A stretch of 64,000 nucleotides of DNA from Actibacterium sp. MT2.3-13A (GTDB taxonomy: Bacteria; Pseudomonadota; Alphaproteobacteria; Rhodobacterales; Rhodobacteraceae). A program made the position numbers and the translations under genes. The number at the start of each line of letters is the position of its first letter. Positions within the stretch are counted from its first letter, which is position 1. The notes below the pieces were generated by a model, which worked only from the letters and a program-made list of their open reading frames with translations, did not search any database and was not told the DNA's origin. The stretch spans positions 1 to 64,000 of the forward strand of contig NZ_JAGSOU010000017.1 in assembly GCF_018139985.1 (NCBI RefSeq). The letters are read 5' to 3'. Positions 60,260 through 64,000 of the stretch are shown in pieces.

Positions 60260-61251
60260 CCCAGGGCCCCGTGCTGATCGACCTCGAAGGCGAACCCGCC
60301 GAAACCCCGTCCTCCGCGCCCCCCGTGCCGGAGTTGGAGGAGGCCCCCTCGGGTCAAGCCATGCAGACGCTGGCCGCGCTGGGCGCGCGCCGTCCCTCGC
60401 GGCTGGGGCGGTTCTTCTGGTCGAGCCTGGTGGCGCTGATCGGCTTCGCCGCTTCGGTCGCGGCGTGGGATTTGGTGACCGGGCTGCTGGCGCGCAACGC
60501 TGTGATCGGAACCGCGGCACTGGTGCTGCTGGCCGCCGTGCTGCTGGCGCTGGCGATGATCGGGCTGCGCGAGCTGTCGGCCTTCGCCCGGCTGCGCCGG
60601 ATCGACACCGTGCAGAAGGCGGGCGCTGCGGCGCTGGTCTCTGGCGACCTGGGGCAGGCGCGGCAGGTGGTGGCGCGGCTGGAGCGCCTCTATGCCGCCC
60701 GCGACGAGCTGCGCTGGGGCCGCGAGCGGCTGGCCGAGCGGCAGGGCGACATGTTCGATGCCGACGGGCTGCTGGGGCTGGCCGAGGCGGAGCTGCTGGC
60801 GCCGCTGGACGCCGCCGCGCGGCGCGAGGTCGAAGGGGCGGCGCGGCAGGTGGCGACCGTCACCGCCCTGGTGCCGTTGGCGCTGGCCGATCTCTTCGCC
60901 GCGCTGAGCGCCAACCTGCGGATGATCCGCCGCATCGCCGAGATCTACGGCGGGCGGTCGGGCACGCTGGGCAGCTGGCGCATCACCCGCGCGGTGCTGA
61001 CCCATCTGGTGGCCACCGGCGCGGTCGCGGTGGGCGACGACATGATCGAGCCGCTGATCGGCGGCGGGCTGGTGGGCAAGGTCTCGCGCCGCTTCGGCGA
61101 GGGGCTGGTGAACGGCGCGCTGACCGCGCGGGTGGGCGTCGCCGCGATCGAGGTCTGCCGGCCGCTGCCCTTCGTTCGGGCCAAGCGCCCCTCGGCCTCG
61201 CGGCTGGTGCAGCGGTCGCTGACGGGGCTGTTTTCGAAGGGTGCGGCCTAG
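60256..61251 (+). CDS. TIGR01620/YcjF-like membrane protein (DUF697)
   Basis: A 331-residue inner-membrane protein. A disordered N-terminus of about 50 residues is followed by two hydrophobic segments (about 52-75 and 79-100), a helical middle part and the family C-terminal region (LFAALSANLRMIRRIAEIYGGRSG). It overlaps the YcjX-like gene by four bases and is its usual partner. Its stop abuts the end of the convergent haemoglobin gene. Confidence 0.88.
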   Translation: MTQGPVLIDLEGEPAETPSSAPPVPELEEAPSGQAMQTLAALGARRPSRLGRFFWSSLVALIGFAASVAAWDLVTGLLARNAVIGTAALVLLAAVLLALAMIGLRELSAFARLRRIDTVQKAGAAALVSGDLGQARQVVARLERLYAARDELRWGRERLAERQGDMFDADGLLGLAEAELLAPLDAAARREVEGAARQVATVTALVPLALADLFAALSANLRMIRRIAEIYGGRSGTLGSWRITRAVLTHLVATGAVAVGDDMIEPLIGGGLVGKVSRRFGEGLVNGALTARVGVAAIEVCRPLPFVRAKRPSASRLVQRSLTGLFSKGAA

Positions 61252-61252
61252 C

Positions 61253-61669
61253 TCAAAGAAGCCGCGGCGGGCTGCCCGCGGGGCGGTCGCGATCGGCGAT
61301 CGCGGCGCGCTGCCCGCGCCCGATGCGGTGGGCCAGCGCCGAGAACGCCGCCGCGGTCTCGGGCGGCAGATCGGCGGTGCGGAGGATGTGGTCGAACAGC
61401 CCCAGCCACAGCGCGAAATGATGCTCCCTGATCTCCGGCGCGGAGAGATGCGCGCGCATCGGGCTGCCGTCATAGCTGCGCTCATGCAGGATGGCGTTGC
61501 GCCAGAAGGCGGCGATCTTGGCCTCATGCGCGGGCCAGCCGCCGTCGGGCACATGGGCGGCGAAGATCGGCCCCAGTTCGGGGTGGCGCCGGATCGCGGC
61601 GTAGAAACGGCGCACCACGGTATCGATCTGCGCGGCCGTGATGTCGAAGCGCGGGGGAAGGGCGGTCAT
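61253..61669 (-). CDS. group III truncated haemoglobin
   Basis: A 138-residue globin of the group III truncated class. The start DITAAQIDTVVRRFYAAIRRHPELGPIFAA and the stretch KIAAFWRNAILHERSYDG fit the family; EIREHHFALWLGLFDH carries the proximal His region. AAGGAG precedes ATG 61669. Such globins bind O2 or NO and are tied to low-oxygen or nitrosative conditions. A 17-bp palindrome lies 12 bp upstream of the start, so expression is probably repressed through it. Confidence 0.9.
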   Translation of the reverse strand: MTALPPRFDITAAQIDTVVRRFYAAIRRHPELGPIFAAHVPDGGWPAHEAKIAAFWRNAILHERSYDGSPMRAHLSAPEIREHHFALWLGLFDHILRTADLPPETAAAFSALAHRIGRGQRAAIADRDRPAGSPPRLL

Positions 61670-61680
61670 GGCGGCTCCTT

Positions 61681-61697
61681 TATCTGCATGGCAGATA
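61681..61697. promoter_or_regulatory. 17-bp palindrome before the truncated haemoglobin gene
   Basis: TATCTGC-ATG-GCAGATA, a perfect inverted repeat with 7-bp arms, just upstream of the ribosome site of the haemoglobin gene. A protein bound here would block transcription or its start. The family of the regulator is not clear; an Rrf2-type NO or redox sensor is one possibility. Confidence 0.6.
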
Positions 61698-61735
61698 TAT
61701 CTTTTCCGCCCCCGCGGCAAGCGCCCCCCGGCCAC

Positions 61736-61764
61736 TGGACCCGGCCGCGCCCGCGGCGTATAAG
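61736..61764 (+). promoter_or_regulatory. sigma-70 promoter of the ileS leader
   Basis: TGGACC (61736-61741) and TATAAG (61759-61764) are 17 bases apart. Transcription would begin near 61771, which is the A of the leader-peptide ATG, so the leader message would have almost no 5' untranslated part. Confidence 0.55.
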
Positions 61765-61770
61765 CGCCCC

Positions 61771-61821
61771 ATGATGACGCGCATTGCCATCATTATTCGA
61801 ATTACCAGCCCGGCGCTCTGA
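61771..61821 (+). CDS. Ile-rich leader peptide upstream of ileS
   Basis: A 16-residue frame reading MMTRIAIIIRITSPAL and ending in TGA. Five of 16 residues are Ile, including three in a row. It starts where the promoter would start the transcript and ends 86 bp before the ileS ATG. This is the layout of a ribosome-stalling leader that reports charged tRNA-Ile. No strong terminator hairpin was found between it and ileS; only weak pairing involving AAGGCG and a downstream CGCC/CCTT stretch can be drawn. The peptide is therefore a good candidate, but the mechanism is open. Confidence 0.6.
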   Translation: MMTRIAIIIRITSPAL

Positions 61822-61907
61822 CCCAAGATGAGCCGCCGGGACAAGGCGTTTGAGCCCTCGCGCCGCCCCTTCTTCCAGACCTGACGATCTTTCAAGGACC
61901 ACGCCCC

Positions 61908-64000
61908 ATGTGTGCCGACACGCCCGACTACAAAGACACGCTGAACCTGCCCGAGACCGATTTCCCCATGCGCGCGGGCCTGCCCAAGCGCGAGCCCGAA
62001 TGGCTGGAGCGCTGGGCCCGGATCGGCGTCTACGACCGGCTGCGCGAAAAGACGGGGCGCGCGCCCTTCATCCTGCATGACGGCCCGCCCTACGCCAACG
62101 GCCACCTGCATATCGGCCACGCGCTGAACAAGACGATCAAGGACATCATCGTGCGCTCGCACCAGATGATGGGCAAGGACGCCCGCTATGTGCCGGGCTG
62201 GGACTGCCACGGCCTGCCCATCGAATGGAAGATCGAGGAGCAGTACCGCGCCAAGGGCAAGAACAAGGACGAGGTGCCGGTCGTCGATTTCCGCCAGGAA
62301 TGCCGCAAATTCGCGGCCGGCTGGGTGGACATCCAGCGCGAGGAGTTCAAGCGCCTGGGCGTCACCGGCAAATGGGACGATCCCTACCTGACGATGGATT
62401 TCCACGCCGAGCGCGTGATCGCCGAGGAATTCATGAAATTCCTGATGAACGGAACGCTCTACCAGGGCTCCAAGCCGGTGATGTGGTCGCCGGTGGAAAA
62501 GACCGCGCTGGCCGAGGCGGAGATCGAGTATCACGATCACCAGAGCCATACGATCTGGGTGCCCTTCGCGATCAAAGGTGCGACTGCTTCGGGCCAAGAA
62601 AGTCTCGAAGACTTGCTGCAAGCGCGCGTGGTGATCTGGACCACGACGCCCTGGACCATCCCCTCCAACAAGGCCGTCGCCTATAACCGGAAGATCGCCT
62701 ACGGCCTCTACCGCGTGGACGCGACCGAAGAGGAAAGCTGGACCAAGGTGGGTGATCTTTACATCCTTGCCGATGCTCTGGCTGAAGAAACACTGGCAAA
62801 AGCTCGTGTTACAAGTTTCAAGAGAGTGCGAGGAGTAGATAGTAGTCAGGTTGGTGAGCTGATCCTTGAGCACCCCTTCGCGGGCCTCGACGGCGCCGAC
62901 GGCTTCTGGGATTACGACGTGCCGATGATCGACGGCGACCATGTCACCGACGACGCCGGCACCGGCTTCGTCCACACCGCGCCCAGCCACGGCGCGGATG
63001 ACTACGAATGTTTCGTCAAGCGCAACTGGCTGGACCGGATGACCCACAACGTGGGCGAGGAAAGCGAATTCCTGGCCCATGTGCCGTTCTTCGCCGGGCT
63101 CAAGGTGTTCGATCACAAGGGCAAGGAAGGCAAGGCCAACGCCGCCGTGATCGACAAGCTGGTCGAGGCGAAGGGCATCATCGCCCGCGGCCGCGTCAAG
63201 CACTCCTACCCGCATTCGTGGCGCTCGAAGGCGCCGGTGATCTTCCGCAACACGCCGCAATGGTTCGTCGCCATCGACCGCGAGGTCGGCGACGGGCAGG
63301 ACGACTATGGCACCACGATCCGCAGCCGCGCGCTGACCTCGATCGACAAGCTGGTGAAATGGACGCCGCAGACCGGGCGCAACCGTCTCTATTCGATGAT
63401 CGAGGCGCGGCCCGACTGGGTGCTGTCGCGCCAGCGCGCCTGGGGCGTGCCGCTGACCTGCTTCACCCGCAAGGGCGCGCTGCCCACCGACCCCGATTTC
63501 CTGCTGCGCGACGAGGCGGTGAACGCCCGGATCGCGGCGGCCTTCGAGGCCGAGGGGGCGGATGCCTGGTACAAGGATGGCGCCAAGGAGCGCTTCCTGG
63601 CCGACGACCACAACCCCGACGCCTATGAGCAGGTCCTCGACATTCTCGACGTGTGGTTCGATTCCGGCTCCACCCATTCCTTCGTGCTGCGCGACCGCGC
63701 GGACGGCTCCGAGGACGGCATCGCCGATGTCTACATGGAGGGCACCGACCAGCACCGCGGCTGGTTCCACTCCTCCATGCTGCAGGCCTGCGGCACGATC
63801 GGTCGCGCGCCCTATCGAAACGTGGTGACGCATGGCTTCACGCTGGACGAGAAGGGCAACAAGATGTCCAAATCGCTCGGCAACACCATCCTGCCCGAAG
63901 AGGTGATCAAGCAATACGGCGCCGATATCCTGCGGCTGTGGGTGGCCCAGACCGACTACACCGCCGACCAGCGGATCGGCCCGGAAATCCTGAAGGGGGT
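61908..64000 (+). CDS. ileS: isoleucyl-tRNA synthetase, 3' end outside the window
   Basis: The first 697 residues of IleRS, which charges tRNA-Ile. The class I signature HIGH-type motif is GHLHIGH near 64-70, [11 protein letters not shown] near 244-254 starts the main editing (CP1) region, and KMSKS is present near 652-656. The synthetase body ends beyond the window; bacterial IleRS has 900-1,050 residues. Two stretches in the editing region (62571-62627 and 62748-62872) use AT-ending codons quite unlike the rest of the gene, including AGA, CGA, GTA and AGT, while the protein stays IleRS-like. Confidence 0.97.

Follow-up and report, generated by a model that had tools for sequence, protein, structure and literature searches.

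A leader frame with a conserved CGA-AUU word before ileS in Rhodobacteraceae, a candidate sensor of charged tRNA-Ile

The 64,000-nucleotide stretch of Actibacterium sp. MT2.3-13A DNA that was analysed (the window) ends inside ileS, the gene for isoleucyl-tRNA synthetase, and a short frame rich in Ile codons lies just upstream of it. The question raised by this locus is whether a ribosome on that frame could report the supply of charged tRNA-Ile to the gene. To our knowledge, the matching of synthetase levels to tRNA charging has been described for few genes in Gram-negative bacteria. From comparative sequence data we favour, with a probability of about 0.6, a cis-acting leader in which the leading ribosome would gauge charged tRNA-Ile and set ileS expression accordingly.

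The leader frame and its conservation before ileS

ileS runs on the forward strand from 61908 to 64000 and continues beyond the window end (TIGR00392, PF00133); its in-window part scores 663.4 bits against TIGR00392, for which the cut-off is 621.4. AAGGA at 61894–61898 is its likely Shine–Dalgarno sequence. Within the gene the G+C content falls to 0.48 at 62741–62860 (window, 0.69), possibly a recombined patch. Upstream, a −35 hexamer TGGACC (61736–61741) is separated by 17 nt from a −10 hexamer TATAAG (61759–61764), which is followed after 6 nt by ATGATG (61771; second ATG at 61774). Here begins the leader frame MMTRIAIIIRITSPAL (61771–61821, forward strand), predicted to be leaderless or nearly so, with 16 codons before its stop, five of them for Ile and three of these adjacent; it ends 86 nt before the ileS ATG. 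The spacing, frame length, Ile codons and distance to ileS given in the first-pass annotation proved exact on direct reading. No other frame among the 161 ATG-started frames of 10–30 codons on both strands of the window reaches ≥31% Ile; given this unique content and its conservation, the Ile-rich frame is not a product of chance.

A generic σ70 scan reported no promoter at these hexamers, because the scan demands a T at the last −10 position, and the promoter call therefore rests on conservation: a −10-like box precedes the first ATG in 27 of 29 homologous leaders, at a distance of 5–7 nt in 23 of those 27, and a loosely defined −35-like hexamer is found at 17 nt in 21 of the 27. As this geometry is kept, the nearly leaderless start is judged from the alignments to be conserved, with a predicted transcript 5′ end at or a few bases from the leader AUG. 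Further upstream, the perfect inverted repeat TATCTGC-ATG-GCAGATA (61681–61697) lies ahead of a divergent globin-like ORF (61253–61669, reverse strand; Bac_globin match below cut-off); a scan scored it as terminator-like, and it may alternatively be an operator.

Conservation was assessed by searching the IleRS N-terminus against 61 genomes and using the 30 best loci, each from another Rhodobacteraceae genus. A leader with CGA-AUU and then CCCGG is present in 29 of these 30 best loci, L028 being the only one without it. A covariance model built from the 29 leaders matched 183 of 198 Rhodobacteraceae genomes and 40 of 385 genomes in the class Alphaproteobacteria (E ≤ 0.01), and ileS lay downstream of the match in all 34 Rhodobacteraceae loci checked. 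Because the motif itself had served to recognise leaders, 20 more ileS upstream regions were picked by protein alone from the 27 remaining ileS matches; the leader was found in eight (3/6 in Rhodobacteraceae, 5/14 in other families). This brings the total to 37 of 50 ileS loci, the leader being absent from four of 36 loci in Rhodobacteraceae and from nine of 14 in other families. The first-pass annotation had let its reading depend on an Ile-rich frame recurring before ileS in relatives, and non-conservation was not observed. The frame is kept, but its Ile-richness is not fixed: the 29 Rhodobacteraceae leaders carry from one to six Ile codons, and the constant part is CGA-AUU with the hairpin that follows.

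In the window this word is CGA-AUU-A (61798–61804), of which AUU (61801–61803) is the proposed control codon. In the alignment of the 29 sequences (A1) the CGAATTA and CCCGG columns are invariant and the spacer between them is 4 nt. The codon pair CGA-AUU, without any synonym, and the 4 nt spacer to the hairpin hold in all 37 ileS-anchored leaders; base seven of the word is A in 36 of them (C in L302) and the stem starts with CCCGG in 36 (CCCGA in L298). In the ileS stretches of L001–L030 CGA makes up 35 of 1283 Arg codons (2.7%) and ATT 93 of 856 Ile codons (10.9%). The pair is thus, on the evidence of these sequences, kept at the nucleotide level. One covariance-model match, L043, bears GCC-AUU-A instead. 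Frameshifting at CGAAUUA was considered and rejected, as by inspection the word does not fit X XXY YYZ.

The control codon and the downstream gene

Outside Rhodobacteraceae, weaker matches to the model precede ileS (in other alphaproteobacterial families), a gene for a small protein and, once, leuA with CGA-CUU. A search with the CUU form of the pattern gave matches in 14 of 289 genomes (five matches with the reversed pattern); 13 of the 14 places lie before leuA and the remaining one lies before the small protein. With any base at the first position (NUU), matches were found in 61 of 230 genomes (nine with the reversed pattern); in our reading of the places listed nine are CUU, two are GUU, none is UUU and the rest are AUU. 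A scan of named genomes gave at least 121 pattern matches in at least 120 loci, at least 87 of them in Alphaproteobacteria; at least 59 of the Alphaproteobacteria matches listed precede ileS, spanning eight named orders. Among the matches listed, 34 fall outside Alphaproteobacteria, of which 27 are without an in-frame ATG and one (L145, in a metagenome-assembled genome labelled Marinimicrobia) stands before an identified gene, ilvA.

From 231 distinct pattern matches we analysed the 178 leaders for which both an in-frame ATG and the gene behind were identified, 48 being dropped for want of a recognised gene and five, with a gene, for want of an in-frame ATG within 60 nt. They comprise 130 AUU leaders before ileS, 23 before the small protein (an ACT-like protein; see below), five before AAA_33 and four before ilvA, together with 14 CUU leaders before leuA and two before the ACT gene, the CUU set having been collected mostly by the CUU search and the ileS set partly by an ileS search. 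Among these 178 leaders with an identified gene there is no AUU before leuA and no CUU before ileS. The codons upstream of CGA follow the same division: in the leuA leaders 24.8% are Leu and 4.7% Ile, while Ile makes up 33.8% in the ileS leaders that fit the pattern of a second hairpin, P2 (P2-type leaders, described below), and 12.8% in the other ileS leaders. In the P2-type leaders these upstream Ile codons (for example window 61771–61803) are 47% ATT and 10% ATA, the figures for the ileS stretches being 10.9% and 2.1%.

A short frame with cognate codons thus stands before the gene, as in a leader-peptide attenuator; that the frame is translated we infer. The match between codons and gene is strong comparative evidence that a translating ribosome would sense charged tRNA, and AUU before ileS against CUU before leuA acts as a built-in specificity control supplied by evolution. 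The translation-dependent, nearly leaderless Ile-tRNA sensor suggested in the first-pass annotation agrees well with the conservation, the AUU/CUU switch and the Ile or Leu enrichment.

Two explanations would dispense with this sensing. A nascent peptide, R-I-x-x-P-A, could stall the ribosome in place of hungry codons, and the motif does recur throughout the class; its residues, however, follow from the nucleotides CGANUUA-N4-CCCGG, the R-I pair shows no synonymous codons in any of the 37 ileS-anchored leaders, so that it is codons rather than amino acids that are conserved, and the control residue differs by gene. We regard peptide arrest as very unlikely. Least probable of all the readings weighed here is that the frame is a non-regulatory by-product of a conserved RNA structure: constancy at the nucleotide level could be purely a matter of RNA, but AUU and CUU track the identity of the gene, the upstream Ile or Leu enrichment matches it too, and the geometry of promoter and start codon is kept.

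Hairpins, ribosome position and the output step

Folding and covariation define a hairpin, P1, whose 5′ strand CCCGGCGCUC (61809–61818) lies 4 nt after CGAAUUA, and so starts 11 nt downstream of the C of CGA, and whose 3′ strand is GAGCCGCCGGG (61830–61840); the leader stop UGA (61819–61821) sits within its loop. Among the 171 leaders with a matched stretch of ≥32 nt there are 75 double changes in P1, compared with a mean of 28.8 and a maximum of 39 in shuffles that ignore kinship, and 304 of 342 cells pair; after sliding of the partner the counts are 55, 92 and 193. The second hairpin, P2, has the strands GGCGU (61845–61849) and GCGCC (61860–61864), with GGCG/CGCC and GGUG/CACC as covarying forms and 19 double changes in 74 pattern-fitted leaders (shuffled mean 5.6, maximum 11; kinship again ignored). 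Counts for P2 are restricted to leaders that fit its pattern, which are 75 of the 130 ileS leaders (71 or 74 in some analyses) and one of the 48 leaders of other genes; P2 is therefore not the general output. Ensemble folding of related leaders indicates that CCCC (61866–61869) is able to pair with GGG (61838–61840) in the P1 3′ strand and so extend P2 once P1 is open.

Behind P1, UG at +11/+12 (61851–61852) is a candidate pause site suggested by the pyrimidine-G found there in relatives (58/71 P2-type leaders, 12/49 others), a spacing that we take to be that of a hairpin-stabilised RNA polymerase pause; a second pyrimidine-G peak, at +7 (59/71 P2-type leaders), falls within the P2 stem. In a test of long-range pairing with CGAA, Ile leaders showed a roughly twofold or greater enrichment of UUCG downstream of P1, and GUCG was not clearly enriched there in 13 leuA leaders.

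When the P site holds CGA and the A site AUU, the mRNA entry of the ribosome would coincide with the base of P1 or lie slightly within it. When Ile-tRNA is scarce, the ribosome would wait with its A site on this AUU or on one of the Ile codons before it; P1 would stay folded, holding GGG, and RNA polymerase would proceed into ileS. Given ample Ile-tRNA, the ribosome would enter and open P1 and arrive at the stop in its loop; GGG could then pair with CCCC, and the lengthened P2 would lower downstream expression, most likely by early termination of transcription aided by the pause at 61851/61852. The net effect would be more IleRS whenever tRNA-Ile is poorly charged, and the model predicts that inhibition of IleRS, for example by mupirocin, would raise ileS through the leader.

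We modelled the switch by ensemble folding of 71 P2-type leaders in four ribosome states, with a short and a longer tail (values for the latter in parentheses). Without a ribosome P1 is predicted to form in all 71 and lengthened P2 in none (none). A ribosome edge at +12 leaves P1 formed in 70 leaders and gives a lengthened P2 in 19 (18); moving the edge to +16 abolishes P1 in all 71, lengthened P2 then being predicted in 56 (49). For a ribosome at the stop the number with lengthened P2 is 58 (50). P1 and lengthened P2 are thus predicted to exclude each other in 58 of the 71, depending on the ribosome edge assumed. Ribosome geometry places the helicase site near +11 and the toeprint near +16, and with the edge at +16 the switch would be lost for a ribosome stalled on the last AUU. 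The predicted switch is therefore clean for stalls at earlier Ile codons and conditional at the last AUU, since the survival of P1 depends on the edge.

Three familiar outputs were rejected. No U-tract follows P2 (in 75 leaders, T nowhere exceeds 33% over 20 positions). Behind P1, TTTT occurs within 14 nt in six of 130 ileS leaders (2.9 in shuffles), four of 23 ACT leaders and two of 14 leuA leaders, which is at most some two times as often as in shuffles, and five T in eight are counted at the shuffled level; a classical U-tract terminator is therefore missing. An antiterminator formed by the P1 3′ strand and the P2 5′ strand is predicted in only 0–2 of the 71 leaders. The first-pass annotation had looked to control of ileS translation; this was not borne out by the folding, in which the ileS ribosome-binding site is predicted to be unpaired to the same extent for a stall at AUU and at the stop (mean difference 0.000, s.d. 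0.039, in the 87 leaders whose stop lies at the window's place). The folding, U-tract and binding-site results lead us to grade the two steps of the preferred reading apart: sensing of charged tRNA by the ribosome is likely, and an output of the termination type, to which the competition of P2 with P1 for GGG points, is a best guess at no better than even odds.

Other outputs downstream of such a ribosome can be weighed against the same data. Rho might load on an untranslated C-rich stretch before ileS, its loading being altered by the stalled ribosome and folded P1 while Ile-tRNA is sensed as before. The missing U-tract is in keeping with this, as is a composition of 43% C and 20% G between roughly the P2 3′ strand and the ribosome-binding site of ileS in the same 87 leaders, but the stretch is short, roughly 30–45 nt in most loci, and we hold this output to be unlikely. 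The hairpin-proximal CGA-NUU-A could instead be a site of the RNase E type that a stalled ribosome shields, so that codon hunger would stabilise ileS mRNA. The enterobacterial enzyme prefers RN↓WUU, with which GA↓AUU agrees, and the nucleotides are constant beyond what the amino acids need; CUU and GUU agree less well, and a codon identity matched to the gene calls for a ribosome as well. RNase E sites in Rhodobacter sphaeroides are described as AU-enriched in a paper whose main text does not contain ‘ileS’. Cleavage seems to us less likely than the Rho step. Translational control, in which a leader stall would open or block the ribosome-binding site of the gene or leader ribosomes would run over it, we consider less likely still, given that the frame in the window stops 86 nt short of ileS and that predicted access to the binding site is the same between states. 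In its favour, the leader frame in some loci of other families crosses P1 and stops at about +87 to +111, and in L280 and L286 it crosses P1 and ends beyond the start of the ACT gene (+79), an overlap that suggests translational interference there.

A broader formulation, which we put forward tentatively and at somewhat less than even odds, is that of a sensor family for branched-chain amino acids across Alphaproteobacteria that would differ from classical attenuators. The CGA-NUU-A word would poise the ribosome before the stem, with CGA in the P site, the hungry NUU in the A site and the stem at the mRNA entry; AUU, CUU or GUU would set the amino acid, and the output would be something other than intrinsic termination, for example endonuclease-site shielding or a Rho-type step. 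If true, ileS, ilvA, leuA, the IlvN-like ACT protein and the AAA_33 kinase would form one regulon. Why CGA, why NUU and why 4 nt make a puzzle at the codon level, which may hint that ribosome position is read in a new way.

Known systems and the genes behind related leaders

T-boxes precede ileS in Firmicutes. They are also described before ileS in Actinobacteria (PMC1262725). Like a T-box, the proposed leader would regulate ileS by tRNA-Ile charging; a T-box binds the tRNA directly, whereas the leader has a coding frame instead, and no Rfam family was matched up to E = 1 in window 61000–62400, which upholds the earlier statement that a T-box is absent. In ten related loci the only Rfam hit was to a Legionella sRNA model (E = 0.43, below its cut-off). 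The closer parallel is the Escherichia coli pheM-pheST attenuator, in which a cognate-rich leader peptide precedes a synthetase gene. The ileS leader shares with it this arrangement, the class of gene and a Gram-negative host; it differs in that a U-tract terminator is missing, the start is nearly leaderless, an unvarying pair of codons lies 4 nt from the hairpin and relatives stand before several branched-chain amino acid genes. Attenuators are reported before pheST, trpS and leuS, with pheST cited as the classical case (PMC1262725).

Among Alphaproteobacteria, short leader frames are described before amino acid genes in the trpL/rnTrpL attenuator of Sinorhizobium meliloti, which is leaderless (PMC10117765), and in the ilvB leader peptide attributed to Vitreschak 2004 (PMC1273637); the portions of these sources available to us mention neither a CGA-NUU-A rule nor the spacing to P1. 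A ribosome-profiling paper on Caulobacter names a trpS leader CDS and an ileS leader CDS, CCNA_03934 (PMC4117421), the latter likewise a short alphaproteobacterial coding frame upstream of ileS. Two Caulobacterales ileS loci carry our element, and the two are probably the same; a frame at this place had thus already been mapped by others. In the part of that paper available to us CCNA_03934 appears in a figure as the negative control, and Ile codons, motif and mechanism are not described. A Methylorubrum paper places a transcript start at an A 150 nt upstream of ileS, which is compatible with a leader. Subscription papers and supplements lay outside the scope of our literature search, which found no description of the CGA-NUU-A element. 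Attenuation itself is known, and the codon-locked CGA-NUU-A family is best called a new form of leader-peptide control. It would provide a clear, testable ileS sensor in much of a bacterial class. The first-pass annotation anticipated part of this interpretation and missed the invariant CGA-AUU, P1, P2 and the leuA, ilvA and ACT members.

The small protein behind some of the leaders gave no Pfam match (two examples) and no NCBIfam match (one example). A structure model from 18 aligned homologues (mean pLDDT 87.4) predicts strands and helices in an ACT-like order. Among solved structures, IlvN with valine ranks first (PDB entry 5ypp; E = 4.9e-6, TM 0.64/0.74); other ACT and some non-ACT proteins (the MgtC C-terminus and NikR) rank close behind, and the small chain of the AHAS holo-enzyme is at rank 13. 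An IlvN-like protein fits a branched-chain amino acid regulon. Leaders before this gene can be in tandem: CUU then GUU in L105 (probably also L130), and two AUU leaders about 180–200 bp apart in L313 and L314.

An AUU leader also precedes a small P-loop kinase gene in L184, L202, L245, L308 and L309 (also L047, L051 and L052), in Shimia, Bradyrhizobium, Pseudovibrio, two Rhodobacteraceae genomes and, by eye, one more genus; the L184 copy matches AAA_33 (PF13671). In three genomes of one genus (L050, L116 and L268) an AUU leader stands before an ORF that, in L116, has a sub-threshold match to the NTF2-like family DUF6841.
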